This document shows, piece by piece, positions 3,178 to 25,444 of a stretch of 27,552 bases of DNA (positions are counted from its first letter, which is position 1; the number at the start of each line of letters is the position of its first letter). Position numbers and translations under genes: made by a program. This DNA comes from a virus. Below the pieces are notes generated by a model that did no database searches, was not told where the DNA came from, and worked only from the letters and a program-made list of their open reading frames with translations. The stretch is from positions 1 through 27,552 of the IMG/VR virus record IMGVR_UViG_3300042373_000672; one strand, 5' to 3'.

Positions 3178-3951
3178 TCAAACTCAAGAGAACTATCAAA
3201 AATTTTTACAGCAGATACAACTGTAACAACTCATAGTGAACTAATAACAGCAGTTAATGCTGCCTCTGTAAATATAATACAACAAGCAATACAATATACT
3301 GATAATGCTACCCCCGACTTAACTCCTGCCATTCAAGCAGCCTCTGCAGCAGCCGTAGCCTACACAGACCAAGAACTATCTAACATAGATTTAACAAGCA
3401 CTATCATTACAGCAAGTGCAGCCGCTGCATCTTATACTGACAGTGAAATATCTGCCATTGATTATTCAACAATTATTCAAACAGCATCTGCAGGAGCAGT
3501 AACATTTTTAACAGACTCAGCACCTGGAACATTAGACACTCTTAACGAATTGTCGGCGGCATTGAATGATGATCCTAATTTTTATTCAACTATTCAATCT
3601 GTATATTTAACACAATCAAATGCTAGTGCAACATATCTTACTCAATCAAATGCTAGTTCAACTTATCTTACACAAGCAGCAGGATTAACAACAGCAACTG
3701 CATCTACAACTTATTTGACCCAATCAAGTGCTAGCACTACCTACTTAACCCAATCAAGTGCTTCTACTCAATATGAAAAGTTAATACCTTATTCTACTTC
3801 TACCCCCGAAAGTCCAGTAACTGGTGATATGTGGCTCGATTCAAATAGCACACCTCCTGCATTAAAGGTTTATGATGGAAGTAGTTGGGTTCAACTTGGT
3901 GCTGCTGTTGATGACAGTCAAGCAATAATTTCAGGTAGGATGTTCTCATAA
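3175..3951 (+). CDS. Tail fibre stem protein (TTG start)
   Basis: A 258-residue paralogue of the stem at 976. It starts MSNSRELSKIF and has Ala/Ser-rich segments (QAASAAAVAYTDQELSNID). It carries SAPGTLDTLNELSAALNDD in the middle, then five or more TYLTQS repeats from residue 143 to about 198. It ends with the GDMWLD linker and KVYDGSSWVQLG. The start is TTG, chosen because of the strong purine-rich site upstream and the conserved leader. The stop overlaps the next ATG (TAATG), so stem and adhesin are probably made in step. Role: shaft of a receptor-binding fibre (inference from repeat style and position). Confidence 0.75.
   Translation: MSNSRELSKIFTADTTVTTHSELITAVNAASVNIIQQAIQYTDNATPDLTPAIQAASAAAVAYTDQELSNIDLTSTIITASAAAASYTDSEISAIDYSTIIQTASAGAVTFLTDSAPGTLDTLNELSAALNDDPNFYSTIQSVYLTQSNASATYLTQSNASSTYLTQAAGLTTATASTTYLTQSSASTTYLTQSSASTQYEKLIPYSTSTPESPVTGDMWLDSNSTPPALKVYDGSSWVQLGAAVDDSQAIISGRMFS
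3601..3768 (+). repeat. TYLTQS-type tandem repeats in fibre stem
   Basis: Five copies of YLTQ[SA] separated by short Ser/Ala/Thr spacers. The DNA copies are near-identical over about 15-30 bases, so unequal recombination could change the shaft length. Confidence 0.7.
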
Positions 3952-4871
3952 TGTTAGGAATTAGAAGATTTTATACAAGTGCTGGAATGAGTAGATTAGT
4001 TTCTAATCCATTAAGAGATTTAACAAAATATAATGCAACTGGTGGAGTAATTAGTATTCCAGGAGATGGATATAAATATCATACCTATACTACCCCTGGA
4101 ACATCTCAAACATTTTTTTCTGATATGCCAGGTCAAATAGAAGTTTTTATGTGGGGAGGCGGTGGTGCTGCTGGCGGAACAGGAGGTGGAGCATATTGTT
4201 TTGGTGGAGGTGGTGCATATTCAACTTCAACTTTTATTACAAATCCAGGAACATATACAATAAGTGTTGGTGGTGGTGGACAATTAGGTACACAAGGATG
4301 TGTTATAGGAACTGGAGGTGCTGGAGGACTTGGTGCTAGTGGTGCAGCAGGAGGAAATGGAAGTCAGGCTGGAACCTCTCCATGTTCTGGAACTGGTGGT
4401 GGAGGTGGTGCTGGAAGTTTATTATTATTTTCTGGAACTATTATTGTTGCTGCAGGTGGTGGTGGCGGTGGTGGAGGAACAGAAACTGGATACAACGGAA
4501 CTGGTAACGGTGGTGGAGGTGGTCAAAACGGAACTGCTGGTCAAGGTGCTGGAGCAACTGCTGGAGTAACTGGTGCTAGTGGAAGTACAAATGGACAAAA
4601 TGCTACCGCAACAGGTGGTGATCATAGTGGATCTGGTGGAGGTGGTGGTGGATTTTTAGGTGGAACTGCTGGATTAAATCCCAGTGTTGACGGTCTTTCT
4701 GGTGGTGGTGGTGGAGGAGGTTCAAGTTTAGGACAAACTATTAATAATGGTAGTGGTTCAACTCCTGGAAACTCTGGAAGTTCTTTAAGAAGTGGTGCTG
4801 GAAATGGTGGAGGATCTGGTGCTGCTGGATCAAATGGAATAGTAATAATAAGATATCCGTTTGTTGTATAA
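3951..4871 (+). CDS. Glycine-rich tail fibre adhesin
   Basis: A 306-residue third member of the glycine-rich family. Residues 1-60 are non-repetitive (MLGIRRFYTSAG, YKYHTYTTPGTSQTFFSDMPG), then EVFMWGGGG opens the glycine-rich part, which ends NGIVIIRYPFVV. Unlike its siblings it contains several cysteines in the glycine-rich part (AYCFGG, GCVIGTGG, SPCSGTGG). It is coupled to the stem gene by TAATG. The most likely role is the fibre tip that touches the host surface; the differing glycine-rich cores of the three copies suggest different receptors (inference). Confidence 0.78.
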   Translation: MLGIRRFYTSAGMSRLVSNPLRDLTKYNATGGVISIPGDGYKYHTYTTPGTSQTFFSDMPGQIEVFMWGGGGAAGGTGGGAYCFGGGGAYSTSTFITNPGTYTISVGGGGQLGTQGCVIGTGGAGGLGASGAAGGNGSQAGTSPCSGTGGGGGAGSLLLFSGTIIVAAGGGGGGGGTETGYNGTGNGGGGGQNGTAGQGAGATAGVTGASGSTNGQNATATGGDHSGSGGGGGGFLGGTAGLNPSVDGLSGGGGGGGSSLGQTINNGSGSTPGNSGSSLRSGAGNGGGSGAAGSNGIVIIRYPFVV

Positions 4872-8681: not shown

Positions 8682-9542
8682 ATGTCTAAAAAAATTAGAG
8701 GAAATGCTGGAAGATTACCAGGTGCTCCAACAATTGGGACAGCAACTGCAGGAATTCAAAATGCTACAGTTTCTTTTACAGCCCCATCATATTTAGGAAA
8801 ACCTTCAGGAACAAGTTATACAGTAACTTCAACCCCTGGATCATTTACAGGAACAGGTTCATCATCTCCAATAACAGTAACTGGTTTAACTGGAGGAACC
8901 GCTTACACTTTTAAGGTTGCATTGTCTAATGGAATAGGTTTTGGTCCAGAATCTGCAGCAAGTAATTCAATAACAGCAATTGTTCCACCGTTCTTCCCAC
9001 CGTTCTTCCCACCATTCTTCCCACCATTCTTCCCACCATTCTTCCCACCATTCTTCCCACCAAGATTTTATGTAAATAGTATTCACGTTGCAGGATGTAT
9101 CTATGCAGAAACATTAGTTAAAACAGTAGGAGATAATGATTCTATTAAACATGCAAGAGCAGAAGAATTAGAGGTAGGTCAAGATATTTGGGCTATGACT
9201 CATTCAAATATTGAAGATATGTCATTAGTAAAAACTAAAATTAAAAGTGTTTATCCAATTATTAAACAAACTTTAATATTTAATAATGATGAGTCTACAA
9301 GGGTATCCTTAGAGCAACCAGTACTAGTAGAAGACGGGGGTAATTGGAAATTTATTACCTCAAATGAATTAACTATTGGTAATAAGATAATGTCTTATAG
9401 TGAAGAAGATAATAAATTTGTACCCCTTGAAATTACCGAAATAACAAAAGATGAATCTCCAAAAGTAACATATGCTATATCTGTAGAAGATCATAGTGCA
9501 TTTATTGCTGGAAATATAGTTTGTAGAAATAAGCAGGTATAA
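8682..9542 (+). CDS. Tail protein: Fn3, FFPP linker, Hint domain
   Basis: A 286-residue three-part protein. Residues about 14-98 are a fibronectin type III domain (GTATAGIQNATVSFTAP, SPITVTGLTGGTAYTFKV). Residues 102-127 are six PPFF units and a final PP. Residues 137-286 look like a Hint (hedgehog/intein) domain. Cys139 opens block A (CIYAETLVKT, ELEVGQDIWA), VSLEQPVLVEDGGNW matches block B, TYAISVEDHSAFIAG block F, and VCRNKQV the end. The block B histidine is Gln here, and the residue before Asn283 is Arg rather than the usual His, so activity is uncertain. Hint domains can form a thioester and cleave or ligate. There is nothing downstream to splice to, so cleavage or attachment of the upstream part is more likely than splicing. 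The neighbour at 9544 has the same first two parts. Confidence 0.75.
   Translation: MSKKIRGNAGRLPGAPTIGTATAGIQNATVSFTAPSYLGKPSGTSYTVTSTPGSFTGTGSSSPITVTGLTGGTAYTFKVALSNGIGFGPESAASNSITAIVPPFFPPFFPPFFPPFFPPFFPPFFPPRFYVNSIHVAGCIYAETLVKTVGDNDSIKHARAEELEVGQDIWAMTHSNIEDMSLVKTKIKSVYPIIKQTLIFNNDESTRVSLEQPVLVEDGGNWKFITSNELTIGNKIMSYSEEDNKFVPLEITEITKDESPKVTYAISVEDHSAFIAGNIVCRNKQV
8985..9062 (+). repeat. 12-bp tandem repeat encoding (PPFF)6
   Basis: Six near-perfect 12-bp units (CCACCATTCTTC, the first two with CCG) plus half a unit. The period is in frame, so copy-number change alters linker length without breaking the gene. Confidence 0.9.
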
Positions 9543-9543
9543 A

Positions 9544-10227
9544 ATGCCATTAATTATTGGATCAAATAGTGGTGGAAAACAACCAGGAACACCTATAATT
9601 GGTACTGCAACTGCAGGAATTATAAGTGCTACAGTTGGCTTTACAGCCCCATCATATTTAGGAAAACCAACAGGAACAACTTATACAGCAACATCAAGTC
9701 CTGGAGGAATAACTGGAACTAGTTCAACTTCTCCAATTACTGTCAATGGATTAACAGCAGGTGTGTCTTATACATTTACTGTTACATTGTCTAACGGAAT
9801 TGCAACTTCTACCGCTTCTGGAATAAGTAATTCTGTTACACCTTCACCAGTACCATTCTTCCCACCATTCTTTCCACCATTCTTTCCACCATTCTTCCCA
9901 CCTAACTTTTATTCAGACGAAAGAGACAAGCAAGATATTAAATCATTAGAATTGGGATTAGACTTTGTTAAAGATTTATTACCAGTATCTTATGTATGGA
10001 ATATGAGAGATGGGTCAGTTGCTGGAGTAAATGATGCTGGTTTTATTGCTCAAGACCTACAAAGAATTCAAGAAAAATACGGTGTAGAGTGGCTGGGTAT
10101 GGTTGATGATTCTAATGAAAGTCAATTAAAGATAAACTATATTAAGATGATACCTATCCTTGTAAAATCAGTACAAGAACTAACTAAAGAAATAGAAGAA
10201 TTAAAAAATAAACAGTGCTCTTGCTAA
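9544..10227 (+). CDS. Tail protein: Fn3, FFPP linker, Peptidase_S74
   Basis: A 227-residue twin of the upstream protein. The Fn3 domain (residues 14-100) is closely similar (GTATAGIISATVGFTAP, APSYLGKPTG), followed by four FFPP units at 104-120. Ser124 then opens an intramolecular chaperone of the endosialidase/Peptidase_S74 family: SDERDKQDIKSLELGLDFV, PVSYVWN, AGFIAQDLQ. These chaperones help a trimeric fibre to fold and then cut themselves off just before the conserved Ser. A C-terminal helix (VKSVQELTKEIEELKNK) ends in CSC, which could pin the chaperone trimer together. If cleavage is standard, the mature protein is only Fn3 plus the linker, about 123 residues. It starts one base after the upstream stop. 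Confidence 0.85.
   Translation: MPLIIGSNSGGKQPGTPIIGTATAGIISATVGFTAPSYLGKPTGTTYTATSSPGGITGTSSTSPITVNGLTAGVSYTFTVTLSNGIATSTASGISNSVTPSPVPFFPPFFPPFFPPFFPPNFYSDERDKQDIKSLELGLDFVKDLLPVSYVWNMRDGSVAGVNDAGFIAQDLQRIQEKYGVEWLGMVDDSNESQLKINYIKMIPILVKSVQELTKEIEELKNKQCSC
9853..9903 (+). repeat. 12-bp tandem repeat encoding (FFPP)4
   Basis: Same repeat unit as 8985-9062, with TTT/TTC wobble changes. It joins the Fn3 domain to the self-cleaving chaperone. Confidence 0.88.
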
Positions 10228-10249
10228 ACTAGTATCTTTATGATATTAT
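10221..10249 (+). promoter_or_regulatory. Promoter of hydroxylase cluster
   Basis: TTGCTA at 10221-10226, a 17 nt spacer, then TATTAT at 10244-10249 with a TG extension. It overlaps the end of the S74 gene and stands 21 nt before the ATG at 10271, which has AAAGG as ribosome binding site. Confidence 0.6.
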
Positions 10250-10270
10250 AGATCTAACAGAAAGGTCATC

Positions 10271-10945
10271 ATGATGCAAAGAGAAGAAAATATAGTTCAA
10301 TCATGGTCAGAAGTAGAAGACTTAGGTAATGGCATATATGTTTATAGAGATGTATTACCAGAATCATTAGACTTAGTCAATAGATTAGAAAAAGTATTAT
10401 CTAACCCAGAAAGTCAATATAACTGGATAGTTGCACAAGTAGGATATGGTCAAGTTATGCCAGACTATCGTGACTGTGTTGATTTTAAATATAAAAAATC
10501 AGATTTGGTTGATGATGGATCAAAAGAATATAATGAATTAGCAAAAATATGGCAGCAATGTTACGATAGAAAGGCTGCAGCAGTAGATCACTATAGATCT
10601 AGATTTAATATTATGGACTTAAAATATTGGGAAGCATTTAACTTTATTAGATATGGTGAAGGTCAACATTTTATGGAACACCATGATCATGGATATTCAT
10701 ATAATTGTACAGTTTCGTTAGTTTGTTATTTAAATGATAATTATGAAGGTGGAGAACTGTCATTTAGATTGCAGGGTTTAAAAATTAAACCAAAGGCTGG
10801 AGACATGTACGTATTTCCTTCTAATTTTATGTATCCACATGTTGCTGAAAAGGTAACGTCTGGTGTTAAATATTCTTTAGTAACTATGTTGGATTATAGT
10901 GCTAAGTATCATACACCAGAAATTTATAATAATACGGAAGACTAA
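10271..10945 (+). CDS. 2OG-Fe(II) oxygenase, prolyl 4-hydroxylase-like (1)
   Basis: A 224-residue enzyme of the P4H superfamily. Fe(II) ligands are H137-x-D139 (in EHHDHGYS) and H190 (YPHVAEKV). K200 (GVKYSLV), ten residues later, would hold the 2-oxoglutarate carboxylate. The core strand motif YLNDNYEGGELSF is shared with the five related genes downstream. Such enzymes couple 2-oxoglutarate decarboxylation to hydroxylation of a side chain, often proline, or of a small molecule. This copy stands apart from the others, separated by two genes of unknown function, and begins the operon. The start could equally be the second ATG one codon later. Substrate unknown; nearest candidates are the proline-rich tail proteins upstream. 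Confidence 0.85.
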   Translation: MMQREENIVQSWSEVEDLGNGIYVYRDVLPESLDLVNRLEKVLSNPESQYNWIVAQVGYGQVMPDYRDCVDFKYKKSDLVDDGSKEYNELAKIWQQCYDRKAAAVDHYRSRFNIMDLKYWEAFNFIRYGEGQHFMEHHDHGYSYNCTVSLVCYLNDNYEGGELSFRLQGLKIKPKAGDMYVFPSNFMYPHVAEKVTSGVKYSLVTMLDYSAKYHTPEIYNNTED

Positions 10946-11655
10946 TGTCAACAGTAAATGTTTACTGTCAAAACCAATCTGTTAATATAAAACAAACACG
11001 AATAAAAAGAGATTGGATGGAAGAAACTGCTGAAAAACATGCCTATAAATGTTTTCCTATAAGTTTGGCAAATACTATAGGGTATGAATTATCTTTACCA
11101 ATAGATGTTACTTTTGTTTGGGATGGAATTAGTGATTCATCACCAGAACACATAAAAATACTTTCTGGAGAAGAATTTATACAAAACTCTAGGGCAAATG
11201 CAACTGTTAGTTTTAAAACTGGTATAGTTATAAAGTCAGATAGCAATATTAGTTTTTTACATATGCCAGTACCAAACATGTTTAATGATTCATATCAAAC
11301 TTTTACTAGTTTAATTAGTACCTCATTTTTTGATCAAGAATTTCCTTCTGCTATAAAAATATTAAAGCCAGATAAGGCTATAACAATTAAAGCAAATGAG
11401 CCATTTGCAACACTTGTACCTATATCTTTAACTAGCATGTCAGATATAGAATTAAATTTAAATGATTTTGATATGGATGAGAAGTGGTATAAAGATAATG
11501 AAGAAAGAGGCAAGGTGGCATATGAACTTAATAAAAAGGGTGAATGGACTAACTGGTATAGAAATGCTACTGATCATAACGATGTTCAAATTGGTGAACA
11601 TGAGGTAAAGTCTTTAAAACTAATAATAAACGATAATAGGAGAAATAGTGGATAG
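10945..11655 (+). CDS. Conserved protein, paralogue of next gene
   Basis: A 236-residue protein overlapping the oxygenase stop by one base (TAATG). It has C36-x-P38, G46-Y47 and P52 (CFPISLANTIGYELSLP), then DVTFVWDG, and near the C-terminus EPFATLVPISL. The protein at 11648 has the same residues at identical spacing (C64, P66, G74, Y75, P80, then DIEFYLD, and later TPFVQVFPF). The pair is therefore homologous. The pattern recalls the DUF6065 group found in phages and bacteria, though I cannot confirm this. It has no clear metal site. Its place between oxygenases suggests it serves the same pathway, perhaps by binding or shaping a substrate (inference). Confidence 0.6.
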   Translation: MSTVNVYCQNQSVNIKQTRIKRDWMEETAEKHAYKCFPISLANTIGYELSLPIDVTFVWDGISDSSPEHIKILSGEEFIQNSRANATVSFKTGIVIKSDSNISFLHMPVPNMFNDSYQTFTSLISTSFFDQEFPSAIKILKPDKAITIKANEPFATLVPISLTSMSDIELNLNDFDMDEKWYKDNEERGKVAYELNKKGEWTNWYRNATDHNDVQIGEHEVKSLKLIINDNRRNSG

Positions 11656-12382
11656 CAAAGAAATAAAGTTTATTACAAACAGATTTTGGCAAACAGAAAG
11701 AACCAGCACTAAACCATCTTCTGCATCTAAGTCTTTACCAGAGTGGTATACAAAAGCAGAAAGATTTATAACTAACCCTGAAACTAAAGAATATTATGAA
11801 GATAAAGACGGTGGCAAAATTGCTAGTTGGAAGGCATGTATGCCATTTATGGATGTAATGATGAGTGGATATTTTATGTATACCCCTTGCGATATAGAGT
11901 TTTATTTAGATGAGCAAGGAGATATTCGTCATAAAATAACTGATGAAAAAAATCAAAGTTTTTGTAGTGAAAGACCACCAATGCTTGGATTTTATCAACC
12001 AGACGGATACTACTTAGATCATTTCTCTTGGTTTGTAGACTGGGGAACTATATTACCAGAAGGATATAGTGCTCTGTATACAACTCCATTTAATAGATTT
12101 GATTTACCATTTATAAATACATCTGGAATTATTGATAACGATGTTGTTAACCTTAATGGAAACCTACCATTTTTTTTAAGAGAAGGCTGGACTGGTGTAA
12201 TACCTAAAGGAACCCCATTTGTTCAGGTATTTCCGTTTAAAAGAGAAAACTGGACTTCTTCTATAATTGTTGAAGACCCAATGTCTATTCCTCAAAAAAA
12301 TATTGATAATGCTGCTAAATATAGAGTGCCTGATGGAGGGGTATATAAAAATGTAGACTGGCATAGAAGATCATATGAATAG
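11648..12382 (+). CDS. Conserved protein, paralogue of previous gene (GTG start)
   Basis: A 244-residue protein starting at GTG, 8 nt inside the upstream gene, behind AGGAG. The N-terminal part has NRFWQTERTSTKPSSASKSL and PEWYTKAERF. The shared core is CMPFMDVMMSGYFMYTPCDI (64-83), and the C-terminal half has GWTGVIPKGTPFVQVFPFKR, then DWHRR at the end. The beta-rich middle with PEGYSALYTTPFNR and the KGTP turn suggests a jelly-roll or cupin-like fold, but no metal triad is clear. Proteins of this look sit near 2OG oxygenases in other aquatic phages as far as I recall. Function unknown; possibly a partner of the hydroxylases. Confidence 0.6.
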   Translation: MDSKEIKFITNRFWQTERTSTKPSSASKSLPEWYTKAERFITNPETKEYYEDKDGGKIASWKACMPFMDVMMSGYFMYTPCDIEFYLDEQGDIRHKITDEKNQSFCSERPPMLGFYQPDGYYLDHFSWFVDWGTILPEGYSALYTTPFNRFDLPFINTSGIIDNDVVNLNGNLPFFLREGWTGVIPKGTPFVQVFPFKRENWTSSIIVEDPMSIPQKNIDNAAKYRVPDGGVYKNVDWHRRSYE

Positions 12383-12387
12383 TCCTA

Positions 12388-12396
12388 TGGTAAAAT
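12388..12396 (+). promoter_or_regulatory. Extended -10 promoter, leaderless type
   Basis: TGG then TAAAAT at 12391-12396, six bases before the ATG at 12403. No ribosome binding site fits in between, so transcription probably starts at the start codon. Confidence 0.45.
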
Positions 12397-12402
12397 AAAA
12401 TT

Positions 12403-13086
12403 ATGAATCCAAAAGAATTAGAAAAATTAATGGAAGAAACAGATAAAAATAGGGTATCTATAACCCCGTCTGGATCTTTTGGATCATCTAAAGACAATAT
12501 TGTAAGTTTAGAAGATTTTATGACTAAAGAAGATAAAGAGTTATTGTATAACTTTGCAGTTAACTTAGAAAATTGGCACAAAGATGAAAGTGTTTATGAT
12601 AAAGATGGTGTTATGATTTATGATGCTAGTTTTTGGGCTAACCGTGTAGCAAATCAAAAAGAAATTGCACAACAAGATTCAGCAAATATAGTTAGAGATA
12701 AAATTGTAGAACTACTAGCAAGATTTAAAGAAAAGGTAGATGCTCATTTAAACGTTAATGCCGTACCAACATTTCCTGCTTTTGTAAGATGGTTTCCAGG
12801 AAATTATCAACTACCACATGCAGATAAAGAATTGCATGAAGGAGAAAACTCAGGAAAACCAAATAATTTTCCATATTATGACATTGCTGGATTAATGTAC
12901 CTTAATGATGATTATGAAGGTGGAGAACTATACTTTCCACAACATGATATTGAGTTTAAACCTAAAGCAGGTGCAGCATATTTTTTTCCAGGAGATAAAA
13001 ACTTTATACATGGGGTAAAAGAAGTTACTGCTGGTGTTAGATACACACTTCCATTTTTTTGGACTATAGTAGGGCACGGTAAATAA
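12403..13086 (+). CDS. 2OG-Fe(II) oxygenase, prolyl 4-hydroxylase-like (2)
   Basis: A 227-residue P4H-type enzyme. Iron ligands H139-x-D141 (LPHADKEL) and H203 (FIHGVKEV), 2-oxoglutarate residue R213 (GVRYTLPFFW). The shared core is YLNDDYEGGELYFPQHDIEF, followed by KPKAGAAYFFPG. The first 75 residues are helical and polar. The start is set by the -10 box that ends 6 nt before the ATG. The next gene begins directly after the stop. It is closest in style to the copy at 13850 (both GELYFP, IHGVKE, RYT). All catalytic residues are present, so activity is likely; substrate unknown. Confidence 0.87.
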   Translation: MNPKELEKLMEETDKNRVSITPSGSFGSSKDNIVSLEDFMTKEDKELLYNFAVNLENWHKDESVYDKDGVMIYDASFWANRVANQKEIAQQDSANIVRDKIVELLARFKEKVDAHLNVNAVPTFPAFVRWFPGNYQLPHADKELHEGENSGKPNNFPYYDIAGLMYLNDDYEGGELYFPQHDIEFKPKAGAAYFFPGDKNFIHGVKEVTAGVRYTLPFFWTIVGHGK

Positions 13087-13863
13087 ATGGAATATATTAA
13101 ACTATTTCCTAAGATACATGTATATAAAGGTTTATTAAATAACTGTGATGATCTAGTAGATATATTAAAAAAAGCAGAAGAAGATTCAGATACAACATAT
13201 TTATTTAAAGACTGGAAACCGTGGAGTTTTTTTGGAACTTACGTTTATCAAATAGACAATAACGCCATACATTCTGGTATACAAAATGAAAAATTACAAA
13301 AAGAAATAAATTATCTTGAAATGGTTAAGAAAGCATTTTTTGATAGCACTGATAACTTTTTAAAAGAATATAAATTAGACCTACCTGGAGATTGGCAAAT
13401 GATGGGTCCTTCATTTTCCAAATATATACCAGACGAAGGCGAAGAGGGTAGAGTAGGAAAAGGAATGAGTATGTCTAGGCATACAGATTACGTACCATGG
13501 ATGAAAGATGTTCCAGGATATAAATTTGCTTTAACTTGCACTATGTATTTAAATGACGATTATGACGGTGGAGAAATATCATTTAAAGTTGGAGATCAGT
13601 ATATAGATTATAAACCAGTTGCTGGAGATGTAATTGTATTTCCATCTGGACACCCTGAATTTTTAGCAGACGAGCACCCTTATCTACATGGTGTTAAAAA
13701 GATATCTGGAAATCCAAGATATTTAATTAGATCTTTTTACCAGTTCTATCATACAGGCTCTGAAGAATGGCTTAAAAATCAAGAAAAGTATGGAAAAGAA
13801 ATATGGTGTAAAATGGAAGAAGAAAGAATAGAAAAGGACATGAGGGTGTATGACTTTTACTAA
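13087..13863 (+). CDS. 2OG-Fe(II) oxygenase, prolyl 4-hydroxylase-like (3)
   Basis: A 258-residue enzyme, the longest of the six. Iron ligands H132-x-D134 (SRHTDYVPW) and H201 (YLHGVKKI), 2-oxoglutarate residue R211 (NPRYLIRSF). The core is YLNDDYDGGEISF, with an extra loop PSGHPEFLADEHPYLHG before the distal His. A C-terminal tail of about 40 charged residues (EEWLKNQEKYGKEIWCKMEE) is absent from the shorter siblings and may contact a partner. The ATG follows the upstream stop with no gap, and the next gene starts 14 nt before this one ends. Substrate unknown. Confidence 0.86.
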   Translation: MEYIKLFPKIHVYKGLLNNCDDLVDILKKAEEDSDTTYLFKDWKPWSFFGTYVYQIDNNAIHSGIQNEKLQKEINYLEMVKKAFFDSTDNFLKEYKLDLPGDWQMMGPSFSKYIPDEGEEGRVGKGMSMSRHTDYVPWMKDVPGYKFALTCTMYLNDDYDGGEISFKVGDQYIDYKPVAGDVIVFPSGHPEFLADEHPYLHGVKKISGNPRYLIRSFYQFYHTGSEEWLKNQEKYGKEIWCKMEEERIEKDMRVYDFY

Positions 13864-14530
13864 AGAAGATCTTAAATTCTATAAAAACGATATTGCAAGA
13901 ATTGATAACTTTGTTACAGCAGATGAAGCAAAGGCAATGATTAAATATTTTGAGTCTCAAGCACAAATTTGGGGAGATATTGCTTTTTATAATTCTCTTG
14001 GTATGGGCTTGGCACCACATGATCAAAGGCTTATTGAATTAGGTTTAGATCCTAAACATTTTGATAATTTAAGAGATAAGTTTAAACAATCATGTGAGAT
14101 GTTTTTTGAAAGAGAATTAAGAGCAAACACATCTCATGCACAAAAATGGAAAGTTGGAGGATTTGCTGCACCACATTCAGACAACTCAGACCATGATGGA
14201 AATCCAAACGCCTTTCATATAAATAAATATGTTGGTATATTATACTTAAACGATGATTACGAAGGTGGAGAACTATATTTCCCTGATCATAAGTTAGAGT
14301 TTAAACCTCCTGTGTATTCCTTCATTATGTTCCCAGGTGGTCACGAAAATATTCATGGAGTAAAAGAAATAACAAAAGGAACAAGGTATACAATGGTTTC
14401 ATTTTGGGATTATGCTGATGCAGTATATGATGAAGAAACTTTGGATAAGTGGGAAAAGGAAATTGAAAAGGTTAGAGAAGAGCAAGCAGTTCAAAAAATA
14501 GAGTGGGACAAGGGAAATAAACTTGTATAA
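13850..14530 (+). CDS. 2OG-Fe(II) oxygenase, prolyl 4-hydroxylase-like (4)
   Basis: A 226-residue enzyme whose ATG overlaps the previous gene by 14 nt and follows GAGGGTG. Iron ligands H109-x-D111 (APHSDNSD) and H169 (NIHGVKEI), 2-oxoglutarate residue R179 (GTRYTMVSFW). The core is YLNDDYEGGELYFPDHKLEF. The C-terminus is a charged helix (LDKWEKEIEKVREEQAVQK). A loop of about 20 residues between the HxD and the core (NSDHDGNPNAFHINKY) could form a substrate lid. All key residues are present. Confidence 0.86.
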   Translation: MTFTKEDLKFYKNDIARIDNFVTADEAKAMIKYFESQAQIWGDIAFYNSLGMGLAPHDQRLIELGLDPKHFDNLRDKFKQSCEMFFERELRANTSHAQKWKVGGFAAPHSDNSDHDGNPNAFHINKYVGILYLNDDYEGGELYFPDHKLEFKPPVYSFIMFPGGHENIHGVKEITKGTRYTMVSFWDYADAVYDEETLDKWEKEIEKVREEQAVQKIEWDKGNKLV

Positions 14531-15071
14531 CCTATATATTAATGAAAAAATATATTATTATAAAGATGTAATAAAAAATTATCAAGATATTGTAGATAGG
14601 ATAAATAATGAAAAAGATCCATGGGTTTTTTATCCAACAAAAGAAATTAATGGTATTAAAATACATGAACTAAACCCTTATGAGTTTACTGAATATAAAA
14701 AGGTTAAGATAACAGATATAGAAGATAAGTTAGAAAATTGTATTAGTGATTATGAAATAAAAAATAACATAAAAATAAAAAAATTTACAGATATGATTGT
14801 ACATAAATCGTATCCAGGAAAACACTTAGGGCCTCATACAGATTCTAATGGAGAACATAACTCCCCATGTGTAACAGTTATTATTACCTTAAATGATAAC
14901 TACTATGGAGGAGAAATGGTATTTGATAAACAAAATGTAACATTAAAACTTAGTGCTGGAAGTATTTTAATATACCCATCTGTTGAACCATATAGTCATA
15001 TGCCTAGTCTAATTACCGCAGGAAGTAAGATATCAGCAATTATGTTTGGATTTAAAGATGAAGATAACTAA
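14523..15071 (+). CDS. 2OG-Fe(II) oxygenase, P4H-like, short (5; TTG start)
   Basis: A 182-residue member, starting at TTG 8 nt inside the upstream gene; no in-frame ATG fits. Iron ligands H105-x-D107 (GPHTDSNG) and H159 (YSHMPSLI), with K169 in place of Arg as the 2-oxoglutarate contact. The core is TLNDNYYGGEMVF. The N-terminal YINEKIYYYKDVIKNYQDIV resembles the start of the last member (FDKIHYYEDVIENPYVLI), so these two are the closest pair. It lacks the HGVK motif of members 2-4. Probably active, with a different substrate from those members (inference). Confidence 0.8.
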   Translation: MYNLYINEKIYYYKDVIKNYQDIVDRINNEKDPWVFYPTKEINGIKIHELNPYEFTEYKKVKITDIEDKLENCISDYEIKNNIKIKKFTDMIVHKSYPGKHLGPHTDSNGEHNSPCVTVIITLNDNYYGGEMVFDKQNVTLKLSAGSILIYPSVEPYSHMPSLITAGSKISAIMFGFKDEDN

Positions 15072-15636
15072 GTTTGATAAGATACATTATTATGAGGATG
15101 TTATTGAAAATCCTTATGTTTTAATAAAAGATATTGAAGAAACAGATGAGTTATTAAATAATACTACATCTATAACAAGGTGGAAACAGTGGAAGGCAAG
15201 TGATGACTCATACGATTTCGGGTATCAAAAAATTATTAATCCTTCTATCATTGATGAAACTAATGAAAGACTTACATCGATAAATAAAAAAGTTCGTAAT
15301 GCAATAGTTAACTCTTCTAAAGATTATGCAAATGAACATAATATAGATTTAGGATATTTAACACCAATATCAATAGCCAAATATTCAACTGGAAAAGAAA
15401 TGGGATCTCATATTGATTCATATGATGATGAAAGATCTCCTGTGCTATCTGTAGTCTTATATATTAATGATAATTATGATGGTGGAGAATTATATTTTAA
15501 AGAACAAGAAGTTTTAATTAAGCCTACCGCAGGAAGTTTAATAGCCTTTCCATCAGTAGATCCTTACTACCACCAGTCTATGGTTGTTACTAAGGGATTA
15601 AAGTATATGTCGCCAGGATTCTGGTACAAGGATTGA
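15058..15636 (+). CDS. 2OG-Fe(II) oxygenase, prolyl 4-hydroxylase-like (6)
   Basis: A 192-residue enzyme. I chose the ATG at 15058, with GGA 7 nt before it; a TTG four codons earlier is the alternative. The start overlaps the previous gene by 14 nt. Iron ligands H118-x-D120 (GSHIDSYDDE) and H172 (YYHQSMVV), with K182 as the 2-oxoglutarate contact. The core is YINDNYDGGELYF. It ends GFWYKD. The stop lies within the -35 box of the holin promoter, so the cluster ends here. It pairs with member 5 by N-terminal motif, Lys contact and lack of HGVK. Confidence 0.84.
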   Translation: MKITKFDKIHYYEDVIENPYVLIKDIEETDELLNNTTSITRWKQWKASDDSYDFGYQKIINPSIIDETNERLTSINKKVRNAIVNSSKDYANEHNIDLGYLTPISIAKYSTGKEMGSHIDSYDDERSPVLSVVLYINDNYDGGELYFKEQEVLIKPTAGSLIAFPSVDPYYHQSMVVTKGLKYMSPGFWYKD

Positions 15637-15661
15637 CATCACTCTACGGAGGGTGTACAAT
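15633..15661 (+). promoter_or_regulatory. Near-consensus sigma-70/A promoter before holin
   Basis: TTGACA at 15633-15638 (overlapping the TGA stop), a 17 nt spacer, then TACAAT at 15656-15661. A second TATAAT follows at 15664-15669. This is the best promoter in the window. Confidence 0.75.
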
Positions 15662-15695
15662 AATATAATCGATGTTCTTAAAAGGAGGACAATCA

Positions 15696-15929
15696 ATGGA
15701 ATCATTACTAAATAAAAAAGTATTAGAGTCAGCACTCAATGCTTTTGTAATCGCTTTGATTACACAATTTACCGCTTCAGGTGCAGATGTATCAGCATTA
15801 ACTGGAGACGCATTGGGAACAATTCTCAATTCAGCACTATCAGCAGCAGCATGGGTAGTTATTCGTGCAGTTAATCCAAAAGATACAAAATTTGGAATTA
15901 ACCAAGTAGCAGATAAAAAGAAAAAATAA
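15696..15929 (+). CDS. Putative holin
   Basis: A 77-residue membrane protein. The ATG at 15696 is chosen because AAAAGGAGG stands about 7 nt upstream; a longer frame from 15672 would place that site inside the gene. Hydrophobic segments lie at about 12-25 (LNAFVIALITQFTA) and 44-62 (TILNSALSAAAWVVIRAV). The rest is NPKDTKFGIN and a Lys-rich tail (KKKK). Size, two membrane spans and basic C-terminus fit a small class II type holin, which would open the membrane for the lysin. The lytic transglycosylase lies 1.2 kb away on the other strand. Its own strong promoter would allow separate timing. A simple membrane protein of other function cannot be excluded. Confidence 0.7.
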   Translation: MESLLNKKVLESALNAFVIALITQFTASGADVSALTGDALGTILNSALSAAAWVVIRAVNPKDTKFGINQVADKKKK

Positions 15930-15944
15930 TTAACTAGCAGTATC

Positions 15945-15973
15945 GGGTGGATAGGACACAATCTTATCCACCC
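15945..15973 (+). terminator. Strong 12-bp stem-loop after holin
   Basis: GGGTGGATAGGA at 15945-15956 pairs with TCTTATCCACCC at 15962-15973, with one G-U pair and a 5-nt loop. There is no U-run, only CTTAAT, so it may be a terminator of the U-less kind or an RNA processing or regulatory element before the glycosyltransferase start at 15992. Confidence 0.55.
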
Positions 15974-15991
15974 CTTAATAGAAAGTTTAGT

Positions 15992-17083
15992 ATGTCAAAA
16001 CCTACAGTATGTTTCTTAACCTATGATTGGTCATGGGGAACTAAGCCTTTACAACCAAATGGATGTGCTTGGTATAGATGTTTTCTTCCAATGCAACAAT
16101 TAAAAGAAAAAGATTGGGAAGTTGGAATGGGCTTTCCAGCATTTTCTCCAGAACATGGTTTTGGATTATTAATTCCAGATAAAAAAGCAATTCATGGTTG
16201 GGACATAGTTGTATTAAAACTTATGATGTTAGAAAATTTAGTTAACAATATTCCTGAAGCACAAAGTCGTGGTCAAAAAATTGTAATAGATGTAGACGAT
16301 CACCATGCTGGCTTGGAGCCAACAAATATGGCATACACTTCAACTGATCCTAAAACTAATCCTAAAAATAATAGAGATCATTATTTTAGGGGTATGGAAT
16401 TAGCAGATGCCTTAATTACCTCTACTCCCTTTCTAAGAGATTTTTATAAAAAACAATATCCAAATAAACCTATATACATGGTTAGAAATTCTTTAGATTT
16501 TAAAAACTTTCAAATGAGAAAAGATACTTCTGGTAATTGGCCAACAGTTGGTTGGGTGGGAGCAACTCCTTGGCGTTCTGGAGATCTAGAAACTTTGAGT
16601 CCTTTTGTTGGAGAGTTTGTTGAAAAAAATGATTTACGTTTTCATCACTCTGGTCATATTATTAATGCCCCAACGGTTCAAGAGCAAATGCAAATTCCTG
16701 CTAAAAGATTTTCTAGCGAAGGCATGAAGCCTATATTAACTTATGGAGAAATGTTTAGAAAAATGGATATCGGATTAGTTCCATTGAGACATGTTGAGTT
16801 CAATCTTGCAAAATCATTTATAAAAGGTTTAGAGTATTCTGCTGCTGGTATTCCTTTTATTGCAGAAAATATAGAAGAGTATAAGTTTTTATATGAAGAG
16901 TATGGAATTGGCAGGGTTGCAAATACCAAAGATGAGTGGTTGGGTCATCTAGAAGAGTTAAAAAGTCAAAAGGTTAGAAATATTGAAAGACAGAATAACT
17001 ATAAGTTAGCAAAAGAGTTTCATAGTATTGAAGCAAGAGGTCCTGAATGGGATAAGGTTTATAGAGAGATCAGAGAACTCTAG
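15992..17083 (+). CDS. GT-B fold glycosyltransferase
   Basis: A 363-residue protein. I chose the ATG at 15992 rather than a non-ATG start 15 codons upstream, which would lie inside the stem-loop. The N-terminal half has VCFLTYDWSWGT, KAIHGWDIVVLKLM and VIDVDDHHAG. The C-terminal half has TVGWVGATPWRSGDLETL, then MDIGLVPLRHVEFN and KSFIKGLEYSAAGIPFIAEN, the nucleotide-sugar side of GT4-like enzymes. It should move a sugar from a nucleotide donor to an unknown acceptor. Candidates are phage proteins (hydroxylated fibres), DNA, or host surface glycans. It is the last plus-strand gene before the minus-strand island and its stop overlaps the convergent stop by CTAG. Confidence 0.75.
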   Translation: MSKPTVCFLTYDWSWGTKPLQPNGCAWYRCFLPMQQLKEKDWEVGMGFPAFSPEHGFGLLIPDKKAIHGWDIVVLKLMMLENLVNNIPEAQSRGQKIVIDVDDHHAGLEPTNMAYTSTDPKTNPKNNRDHYFRGMELADALITSTPFLRDFYKKQYPNKPIYMVRNSLDFKNFQMRKDTSGNWPTVGWVGATPWRSGDLETLSPFVGEFVEKNDLRFHHSGHIINAPTVQEQMQIPAKRFSSEGMKPILTYGEMFRKMDIGLVPLRHVEFNLAKSFIKGLEYSAAGIPFIAENIEEYKFLYEEYGIGRVANTKDEWLGHLEELKSQKVRNIERQNNYKLAKEFHSIEARGPEWDKVYREIREL

Positions 17084-23532: not shown

Positions 23533-23898
23533 ATGAATAAGCCAAAACTCAAAAATAATGGTAAGCCTAAGTTAACAGTAATAGAAAAAAAATCAGACTG
23601 GGGAGTTTACGTTTGGTTATGTGACTTTGACAGTAAACCATTTGGTGATGGTAACGGTAATATAATGAATGTTCCAGGAAGACCATATGATTTAGAAAAG
23701 ATGGCAAAAATAAGACAAGCGGCAGAACACTATGGTGCTCCTGCAGGAAAGGTCCATTTCATGGCTGGTGTAAATAGAGTTAGTGACGAAGAGCATCAAA
23801 ATCAAATTCATAGAATGAAAGAAGGATTAATTCCTAGCGAAACAGACATAGGTGCATGGATGCTTGCCCAAGAAGGAATGAGAAAAAATGGAAGATAA
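23533..23898 (+). CDS. Conserved phage protein next to portal
   Basis: A 121-residue protein. I chose the ATG at 23533; a GTG two codons earlier is less likely, and no ribosome binding site is seen, which fits a leaderless start. After a Lys-rich head (NKPKLKNNGKPKL) come WGVYVWLCDFDSKPFGDGNG and NVPGRPYDLEKMAKIRQAAE. Then follow HYGAPAGKVHFMAGVNRVSD and HQNQIHRMKEGLIPSETDIG. Proteins of this outline sit next to terminase or portal genes in actinobacterial phages as I recall, with no known function. Overlapping the portal start by 11 nt, it is likely co-translated with it. It could be a packaging or head-assembly accessory. Confidence 0.6.
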   Translation: MNKPKLKNNGKPKLTVIEKKSDWGVYVWLCDFDSKPFGDGNGNIMNVPGRPYDLEKMAKIRQAAEHYGAPAGKVHFMAGVNRVSDEEHQNQIHRMKEGLIPSETDIGAWMLAQEGMRKNGR

Positions 23899-25444
23899 TA
23901 ATGATGCAATAGCAAAAATAGATAATTTAGATAAAGCACAACCTAAAGAAAAAATAGATTCTTTTAATGTTGATGCAGAAATAGTAAAATCTTATAATGG
24001 AATAGATCATAATTTTAAAAGAAAGATTAATAGAGTTGTAAGTAAGGCATTTACAGGTGTTGGTAATACTAAGTCAAAACAACTATTTCCAGAAATGGAT
24101 ATGGTTACAGCCTACGGTTTATTTGATGTTGTTCTACCACCATACAATTTAGATGAACTTTCTTATTTTTATGAAAACTCATTTGCAAATCACGCAGCAA
24201 TTTCAGCAAAAGTATCAAACATAGTTGGACTTGGATATGGTTTTGAAATTACAGATTCAGTATTGGCAAGACTAGAAGAAGCACCAAATGAAGAATCATT
24301 AATGAGAGCACAAAGAAAAATACAAAGAGCAAAGGCTTCTTTAACCGAGTGGTTAGAAAGTTTAAATGATGAAGATACCTTTAGCCATATTTTAGAAAAA
24401 GCATATATTGATGCAGAATCAACAGGTAACGGATATATTGAAATTGGTCGTAAAGTAAATGGAGAGATTGGCTACATTGGCCATATCCCAGCAACTACAA
24501 TTCGTGTACGCCGTATGCGTGATGGGTATATTCAAATAGTAAATCAAAAGGTAGTATATTTTAGAAACTTTCAAGGTAAAAATGCAAACACAGTAACAAC
24601 TGATCCTAGGCCAAACGAATTAATTCACATTAAGAAGTACTCTCCAAAGAACTCATACTATGGAGTTCCAGATACAGTTGCTGCTGCAACATCTATGGTG
24701 GGTAACGAATTAGCAGCAAAATACAATGTTGACTATTTTGAAAATAAAGCAGTTCCTAGATATATTGCAACTTTAAAGGGTGCAAGACTTAGCCCAGATG
24801 CAGAAGATAAGTTTTTTAGATTTATGCAAGCAGGACTAAAAGGTCAAAATCACAGAACCCTTTATATTCCTCTTCCATCAGATGGTCCAGATAACAAGGT
24901 AGAGTTTAAACTAGATCCAATCGAAAATGGTATTCAAGATGGGTCATTTGAAAAATATCGTAAGGCAAATCGTGACGATATCTTAATGGCACACCAAGTT
25001 CCATTTTCAAAGGTAGGTGGAGGTGAAGGTGTATCAATAGCCTCAGCCCTAGTTGCCGATAGAACCTTTAAAGAGCAAGTTGCTAGACCAGCACAAAGAA
25101 ATCTTGAAAAGACAATAAATAAACTTATTAAAGAAAAGACCGATATGCTTTTGCTTAAATTCAATGAGTTAACTTTAACTGATGAAGATACTCAAAGTAA
25201 GATAGACGAAAGATATTTGCGTATGCAGGTTGTTGTTCCAAATGAAGTTCGTGAAAGAATTGGGTACCCAGCAAGACCAGGTGGCACAGATCCAGTCCTT
25301 TTAGGAGCACAAGCCAGAGCAGAACAAACAGCACAGGCAAGTGGAAATAGACGCAGAGACCAAGAAAGAACTAACAACGCATCCGACTCAACATCTACCA
25401 CAAGAGGTAGAAGTGCACAGGGCGAAGGCAGATCTCAAGAATAA
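23888..25444 (+). CDS. Portal protein
   Basis: A 518-residue portal of the PBSX/HK97-like group. It forms the dodecameric ring at one capsid vertex through which DNA is packaged and to which the tail joins. Typical segments are LPPYNLDELSYFYENSFANH, DAESTGNGYIEIGR, GHIPATTIRVRR, ELIHIKKYSPKNSYYGVP and GEGVSIASALVADRTFKEQV. The C-terminal 60 residues are Gln/Arg/Ser-rich and likely disordered. The ATG is 11 nt inside the preceding gene, with AAGGA upstream. No terminase gene is found in the window, though it usually precedes the portal. Confidence 0.9.
   Translation: MEDNNDAIAKIDNLDKAQPKEKIDSFNVDAEIVKSYNGIDHNFKRKINRVVSKAFTGVGNTKSKQLFPEMDMVTAYGLFDVVLPPYNLDELSYFYENSFANHAAISAKVSNIVGLGYGFEITDSVLARLEEAPNEESLMRAQRKIQRAKASLTEWLESLNDEDTFSHILEKAYIDAESTGNGYIEIGRKVNGEIGYIGHIPATTIRVRRMRDGYIQIVNQKVVYFRNFQGKNANTVTTDPRPNELIHIKKYSPKNSYYGVPDTVAAATSMVGNELAAKYNVDYFENKAVPRYIATLKGARLSPDAEDKFFRFMQAGLKGQNHRTLYIPLPSDGPDNKVEFKLDPIENGIQDGSFEKYRKANRDDILMAHQVPFSKVGGGEGVSIASALVADRTFKEQVARPAQRNLEKTINKLIKEKTDMLLLKFNELTLTDEDTQSKIDERYLRMQVVVPNEVRERIGYPARPGGTDPVLLGAQARAEQTAQASGNRRRDQERTNNASDSTSTTRGRSAQGEGRSQE

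Follow-up and report, generated by a model that had tools for sequence, protein, structure and literature searches.

We analyzed a 27,552-nt stretch of viral DNA (IMG/VR record IMGVR_UViG_3300042373_000672; hereafter, the window), in which two consecutive tail genes encoding arrays of the tetrapeptide FFPP are followed by a block of genes for prolyl 4-hydroxylase-like (P4H-like) oxygenases dependent on 2-oxoglutarate and iron (2OG-Fe(II)). A run of tail-fiber-like genes precedes both array-bearing genes, which a preliminary description of this DNA had reported and which are indeed present, as (FFPP)6 and (FFPP)4. All six reading frames together contain exactly these two arrays of at least three FFPP units, indicating that they are not chance occurrences. 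The oxygenase block starts 43 bases after the second tail gene, and its open reading frames (ORFs), spanning 10271–15636, are tightly packed, with successive gaps of −1, −8, 20, 0, −14, −8 and −26. The features of this region are as follows:

8682–9542, plus strand: tail protein with an fn3 domain (Pfam fn3, E = 6.4e-7), an (FFPP)6 linker and a degenerate Hint domain
8991–9062, plus strand: the (FFPP)6 linker, putative hydroxylation substrate, read directly from the sequence
9084–9539, plus strand: Hint-like tip domain of the 8682–9542 protein (alignment of C-terminal family A5 and PDB profile matches)
9544–10227, plus strand: tail protein with an fn3-like stretch, an (FFPP)4 linker and a Peptidase_S74 intramolecular chaperone (Peptidase_S74, E = 4e-12)
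9856–9903, plus strand: the (FFPP)4 linker, read directly from the sequence
10271–10945, plus strand: P4H-like 2OG-Fe(II) oxygenase A (PF13640, E = 1.6e-15; AlphaFold2 model)
10945–11655, plus strand: DUF6065 protein B, accessory member of the cassette (PF19541, E = 4.8e-28)
11648–12382, plus strand: phrog_7084-type protein C with a predicted dUTPase-like beta-clip fold (phrog_7084 match; predicted structure)
12403–13086, plus strand: P4H-like oxygenase D (PF13640, E = 1.7e-9)
13087–13863, plus strand: P4H-like oxygenase E (PF13640, E = 1.7e-10)
13850–14530, plus strand: P4H-like oxygenase F (PF13640, E = 1.3e-8)
14523–15071, plus strand: P4H-like oxygenase G (PF13640, E = 4.5e-8)
15046–15636, plus strand: P4H-like oxygenase H (PF13640, E = 1.3e-11)

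The linker and the oxygenase block co-occur specifically. We compared loci anchored on the FFPP pattern in viral contigs with control loci anchored on a Peptidase_S74 (S74) motif, taking for this and every other collection scan up to the first 120 matches listed per pattern rather than a random draw, and counted P4H-like ORFs with a single fixed hidden Markov model built from the six window oxygenases. Among the matches listed, P4H-like genes were present in 90/120 FFPP loci versus 16/120 S74 tail-fiber controls (an earlier, iterated profile, which the fixed window-only profile superseded, had given 92/120 for the FFPP loci), corresponding to 334 genes, or 30.8 per 100 kb, versus 26 genes, or 2.3 per 100 kb. 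The co-occurrence survey that had been proposed on first description was therefore strongly positive, and the difference persisted when loci were grouped by DNA similarity (48/66 FFPP groups versus 10/100 S74 groups; Fisher p = 5e-17). Where the stretch itself lacked a P4H (30 FFPP loci), the rest of the contig supplied a PF13640 match at E ≤ 0.001 in 16 cases and above the curated cut-off in 15 of these, raising the total to 106/120. Whole control contigs matched PF13640 in 13/50 cases and the FFPP pattern in 0/50; these whole-contig searches covered 50 of the 120 S74 contigs and, on the FFPP side, the 30 of 120 loci without a P4H in the stretch, with partly differing profiles.

The association also held in the reverse direction. 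A P4H-anchored set comprised 74 of 80 returned loci, those most like the window enzymes (the remaining six were already in the FFPP set), and an ORF with FFPPFF was found in 58/74 of them versus 0/120 controls. Because 16/74 overlap the FFPP set by a nearly identical stretch, we also counted the other 58, of which 42 carried FFPPFF, as did 16/20 loci without any DNA link to that set. The 16 loci not matching the linker expression include 12 in which the sequence ahead of the first P4H is no longer than 1,064 bp and three with divergent linkers; the last, L307, is considered below.

A scan of bacterial genomes returned 28 stretches, four of which (L329, L335, L344 and L346) were judged to hold real FFPP arrays; three of these four contain a P4H, and all four may be misbinned phage contigs. 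Among GenBank phages, a homology search with the whole 8682–9542 protein retrieved three weak Erwinia phage records, matching its Hint part, and no cultured phage carrying the cassette was found by the searches made.

One control locus, L221, encodes five P4Hs together with an fn3-like tail protein bearing an FFAPPG repeat, and we therefore searched the collection for FFAPPxFFAPP. Four of the 120 matches were already in other sets, leaving 116 new loci, some of them on one contig. P4H-like genes were present in 99/116 of these (among the matches listed), in 73/88 of those without FFPPFF, and in 59/71 of those that lacked FFPPFF and also shared no DNA with the FFPP set; by DNA grouping, 20 of 23 groups contained a P4H. 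Unrelated repeats gave a very different result, with P4H-like genes at 1/120 PAPAPAPAPA loci and 0/120 FPFPFPFPFP loci among the matches listed (the match lay inside an ORF of at least 100 amino acids in 96/120 PAPA and 32/120 FPFP loci), arguing that proline-richness as such is not the correlate. Within the S74 controls, P4H-like genes were slightly more frequent in proline-rich loci (6/31) than in the rest (10/89). Nor does the fn3 domain account for the pairing: among linker ORFs that have their N-terminus intact and are followed by 1.5 kb or more of sequence, the locus contained a P4H in 37/43 cases without fn3 and in 145/149 with it. It is thus the linker itself, not fn3, that appears to correlate with P4H.

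The linker-bearing proteins share a modular architecture in which an N-terminal domain, often fn3, is followed by an aromatic-diproline stalk of (F/Y)FPP, FFP or FFxPPx units and then by a variable tip (Hint, S74, Cys-rich or other). The FFPP- and P4H-anchored loci yielded 159 distinct linkers, with 2,300 units in all. Position 1 was Phe in 1,917 units and Tyr in 318, position 2 was Phe in 2,293, and the aromatic pair was followed by PP in 1,488 units or a single P in 812; this grammar is descriptive, because the search expression itself called for three or more FFP and for F/Y/W/L/I at position 2. At least two proline codons are used by 153/159 distinct linkers, which points to selection at the protein level rather than a young DNA repeat; within the window's own arrays, codon usage is rather uniform. 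N-terminal to the linker lies fn3 or, in some proteins, another stretch; linker proteins without fn3 (L019, L398, L410 and L261:11510-12247) have N-terminal stretches that look PASTA-like by eye. The fn3-like stretch of the window's 9544–10227 protein falls below the Pfam cut-off.

Tips beyond the linker include Hint-like domains, Cys-rich or other short tails, S74, fn3 and others. The Hint-like domain of the 8682–9542 protein had not been mentioned in the preliminary description. Intein_splicing and PT-HINT profiles match this C-terminal domain below the Pfam cut-off, and family A5, to which it belongs, matches solved inteins and the bacterial intein-like domain 2lwy (E = 1e-11, profile versus PDB). 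The window tip keeps the first Cys and lacks the splicing residues tested: the block-B His is replaced by Gln (Gln-Pro), and the C-terminal His-Asn by Arg-Asn. A number of phages have such a Hint-like tip after the stalk, and some relatives retain HP and HNK signatures while others, including the window, have lost them.

Near the stalk genes, usually directly downstream on the same strand, lie one to about ten 2OG-Fe(II) oxygenases, often accompanied by DUF6065-type proteins. Where 3 kb or more of sequence followed the FFPP ORF (81 ORFs), the first same-strand P4H downstream lay within 1.5 kb in 59 cases and within 5 kb in 70. When genes in 116 tabulated loci were labeled A–H by best BLAST match to the window, which is not a phylogeny, and orders were counted by eye, the run A-C-A-B-D appeared in 27/116, with D-A-B or an inverted D in other loci. 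P4H number per locus correlated only weakly with linker length (rho 0.31) and with the share of single-proline units (rho 0.24), and inversely with non-Phe residues at linker position 1 (rho −0.35), all uncorrected for kinship. In L285, the cassette has sheath and tube genes of the tail as neighbors, which shows that more than one tail type carries it; the PF04860 portal exceeded its cut-off in 22/50 contigs, and the cassette is present in such contigs too.

Several other families recur around these loci. A glutathione-peroxidase/redoxin-like family occurs in 21/194 loci, inside or beside some P4H cassettes (L070:6683-7366, L081:9876-10457), and a short-chain dehydrogenase family in 32/194 (L057:10984-11652), lying inside the P4H block in L008. 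Other 2OG oxygenases (Asp/Arg hydroxylase, TauD, JmjC) are found near some cassettes (L031:1408-2130 and others in alignment A4). A family that looks methyltransferase-like by eye lies directly downstream of P4H cassettes in 16/194 loci (L296:7698-8309, L006:2594-3202); the two members tested had no Pfam match. Pfam Methyltransf_24 and TylF each matched one family representative, and no DNA methyltransferase was identified among the families listed near cassettes. In the window itself, three Gly-rich tail proteins are encoded upstream (277–957, 2019–2996 and 3951–4871) and resemble, by eye, poly-glycine phage adhesins. The window portal (23888–25444) is 54% identical to portals of Streptomyces phages such as Gilson and Moab, making an actinobacterial host likely.

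We then considered what the enzymes themselves indicate. All six window oxygenases, called P4H-like from the outset, score 34–58 bits against PF13640 (curated cut-off, 27) and keep the iron-binding residues: the HxD motif and distal His (H137, D139 and H190) are invariant across the six, as they are among 56 oxygenase sequences, in which the 2OG-binding K200 is conserved at 90% or more. In the window enzymes this position is Lys or Arg, as read by eye from the alignment, and a loose HxD...H...K/R expression matched 318/327 P4H matches of at least 170 amino acids. Sequence profiles of the oxygenases reach prolyl 3- and 4-hydroxylases, the P4H of virus PBCV-1, lysyl hydroxylases, PHD2 and PKHD-type PiuC. 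The AlphaFold2 model of oxygenase A (predicted local distance difference test (pLDDT) score, 93.6) gave PHD2, a Pseudomonas putida P4H and an algal P4H as top Foldseek matches, and prolyl hydroxylases make up 46 of its 50 best fold matches, with query TM values of about 0.5–0.7. The label "prolyl-hydroxylase-like" is well founded, for A because of its predicted fold and for D–H because of their sequences.

The two proteins beside the oxygenases, initially described as paralogous, are distantly related, with 13% identity between B and C in alignment and a phrog_7084 match for each. Relatives of B occur in 138/194 cassette loci and those of C in 119/194, compared with 1/120 S74 controls (L221, protein B only) and 0/240 repeat controls (PAPA, FPFP); DUF6065-type proteins are members of the cassette. 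dUTPases account for all 50 VIA matches listed for the model of protein C (pLDDT 94.6), with Z up to 9.8 and a root-mean-square deviation of 2.6 over 119 residues; the Foldseek E value for this resemblance was only 3e-3. dUTPases carry five catalytic motifs; by eye, the family consensus of protein C retains a GIIDxD-like stretch, and a PRSG-like motif was not seen. None of 55 family members had a Pfam dUTPase match, and the DUF6065/phrog_7084-type alignment, searched against PDB sequences, returned nothing up to E = 1. Judged by eye against these motifs, protein C is probably a beta-clip protein and not a working dUTPase. In halovirus HRTV-7, a phrog_7084-type relative adjoins thymidylate synthase.

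Taken together, these data lead us to infer, with a probability of roughly 0.7, that a phage-encoded cassette hydroxylates a tail stalk of aromatic-diproline repeats whose tips are interchangeable. Late in infection, the oxygenases would hydroxylate stalk prolines, with different paralogues possibly acting on different positions or residues; hydroxylation could make the tip-presenting FFPP rod, otherwise very hydrophobic, stiffer and more soluble, and DUF6065-type beta-clip proteins may assist, perhaps as substrate-binding or substrate-presenting partners. The preliminary description had likewise proposed that the enzymes modify the FFPP linkers, and this part has strong indirect support from the genetic association, the catalytic residues and the predicted prolyl-hydroxylase fold; its second part, glycosylation, did not survive, as described below. 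A more ambitious version, toward which we are inclined to be skeptical, holds that this is a widespread and previously undescribed phage modification in which several paralogues would each write a distinct hydroxylation, by site or by residue, on the hydrophobic FFPP/FFAPP rod, yielding a hydroxyproline-rich, receptor-presenting fiber, with dUTPase-fold DUF6065-type scaffolds presenting the substrate, the cassette exchanged among tail types and the tips swapped.

Several observations weigh against hydroxylation of the stalk. One is L307, a genuine unexplained case with six P4Hs and 4.1 kb upstream in which no linker was found. P4H clusters without a proline-rich fiber protein had been named at the outset as evidence that would count against the idea; such clusters exist to a limited extent, in that L307 stands, while the other P4H-anchored loci without the linker expression have short upstream sequence or divergent linkers. 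Conversely, 14 FFPP contigs, which may be incomplete, lack a PF13640 match. The loci are related by descent, so the counts overstate the number of independent events, and a test of independence by shared flanking families was uninformative, as single linkage merged 140/144 loci. The window order A-B-C-D-E-F-G-H shares A-B-C-D with about 10/116 loci, no ORF of the tabulated FFPP loci has gene G as its best match, and the model offers no reason for as many as 11 P4H paralogues in one locus. Fold does not fix substrate, and PKHD-type PiuC belongs to the same superfamily. Beyond these loci, one to three P4H-like genes also occur in each of nine stretches from named phages, both cyanophages and single-cell marine viruses; FFPPFF or FFxPPxFF was present in 0/9 of these, showing that the enzyme superfamily is broader than the linker pairing. 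In S-H9-1 and S-MbCM7, the P4H-like genes follow short tail-fiber genes, and the five proteins read are without the linker; the P-SSM2 copy examined lies among replication and metabolic genes, and that of S-SCSM2R adjoins glycosyltransferases. Finally, according to a study of PBCV-1, hydroxyproline was looked for in virions and not found, and the role of the viral P4H was called unknown (PMC7019647).

The explanation that best survives beside stalk hydroxylation is that the oxygenases modify other tail parts, such as Gly-rich, Hint, Cys-rich or S74 tips, at Asn, Asp or Lys, with the linker a mere passenger of the tail module. The many paralogues, the constancy of the enzymes while tips vary, and the Asp/Arg hydroxylase, TauD and JmjC genes near some cassettes all fit this idea. 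However, the linker is the element common to differing N-terminal regions and tips, and S74-anchored loci, all without FFPPFF, rarely carry a P4H (16/120), and we therefore consider it unlikely. A small-molecule or metabolic role (2OG or nitrogen status, siderophores, host glycans), with the tail-side location an accident of gene order, seems improbable. It draws on the 2OG-metabolic or DNA-repair roles proposed for cyanophage enzymes in an earlier study (PMC3037559), on the PiuC-like sequence neighbors and on the S-SCSM2R gene beside glycosyltransferases, but it leaves unexplained both the linkage to two aromatic-diproline repeats and the near absence of P4H at PAPA and FPFP loci.

The next alternative is the pathway first proposed in full, namely hydroxylation followed by glycosylation of hydroxyproline by the enzyme encoded at 15947. 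Two further genes follow the P4H block:

15672–15929, plus strand: small hydrophobic ORF of 85 amino acids, possibly holin-like (no family match)
15947–17083, plus strand: glycosyltransferase (phrog_7162 "glycosyltransferase", E = 5e-29)

The glycosyltransferase gene noted earlier is thus present, its protein matching phrog_7162 and no Pfam family at E = 0.1, and it lies on the same strand directly downstream of the block in the window and in L245, a close relative whose oxygenase is 75% identical to A. Relatives of the enzyme were absent from other loci searched at the thresholds used: 0/116 tabulated FFPP loci had one at bits ≥ 45, BLAST of L001–L355 found it beyond the window in L245 alone, and none was found in L380–L735. 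The holin-like ORF, which separates the glycosyltransferase from the P4H block, likewise occurs beyond the window in L245 alone (L001–L355) and lies outside the conserved cassette. Because of this distribution, the glycosyltransferase is outside the conserved system and hydroxyproline glycosylation is not a conserved step; a conserved, extensin-like glycosyltransferase was not found among relatives of the window enzyme, unrelated glycosyltransferase families not having been surveyed in full. The complete two-step pathway is accordingly very improbable. Modification of phage DNA by TET/JBP-like oxygenases together with the dUTPase-like protein and the glycosyltransferase is hardly credible: weak Tet_JBP matches of the window oxygenases (Pfam, E = 0.009–0.02), the fold of protein C and the HRTV-7 gene beside thymidylate synthase speak for it, but the best fold matches of oxygenase A are prolyl hydroxylases, the glycosyltransferase is not conserved, the block is tied to a tail gene, and among the families listed, no methyltransferase match was recognized as one acting on DNA.

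Viral P4Hs have so far been "auxiliary" genes of unknown use, and stalk hydroxylation names a specific candidate substrate, with a sequence grammar and negative controls. If correct, tail-fiber hydroxylation would add a new, oxygen- and 2OG-dependent type of modification to those of phage virions, with a bearing on receptor binding and fiber stability. Among the literature matches listed (long lists in part, with subscription papers and preprints outside their scope), none linked P4H clusters to an FFPP linker; neither the phrase FFPPFFPP nor the combination of FFPP, phage and tail gave any match, and matches for FFPPFF or FFAPPGFF included none on phages by their titles and the starts of their abstracts. 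A Baltic Sea survey states that the use of viral P4H "remains cryptic" and recalls collagen in tail fibers (PMC9301287).

Known 2OG-Fe(II) enzymes offer several points of comparison. The EGLN/PHD2 prolyl hydroxylases of hypoxia-inducible factor (HIF), which act in oxygen sensing, provide the top fold match of oxygenase A, but their genes do not form operons with that of a structural protein. A similarity of phage oxygenases to EGLN3 was noted earlier (PMC12774648). A further comparison is with the cyanophage 2OG-Fe(II) oxygenases of PHROG 61, which five of the six window enzymes match and some of which follow short tail-fiber genes; they differ in numbering one to three per stretch read and in lacking an aromatic-diproline linker in the nine P4H-bearing stretches of named phages. 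The PBCV-1 P4H (5c5t) has the same small, virus-encoded P4H fold as oxygenase A (Foldseek E = 8e-10), and we know of no substrate gene linked to it. The PBCV-1 study reports that this enzyme hydroxylates proline-containing peptides and that it is the product of a single P4H gene, in a eukaryotic algal virus rather than a multi-gene phage cassette (PMC7019647). Another parallel is found in plants and algae, and an algal P4H with (Ser-Pro)5 is among the top fold matches of oxygenase A. Plant and algal P4Hs act on repetitive, proline-rich extracellular rods of the extensin type, whereas the phage system has no conserved glycosyltransferase and its repeat is Phe-Phe-Pro-Pro, built into tail proteins.

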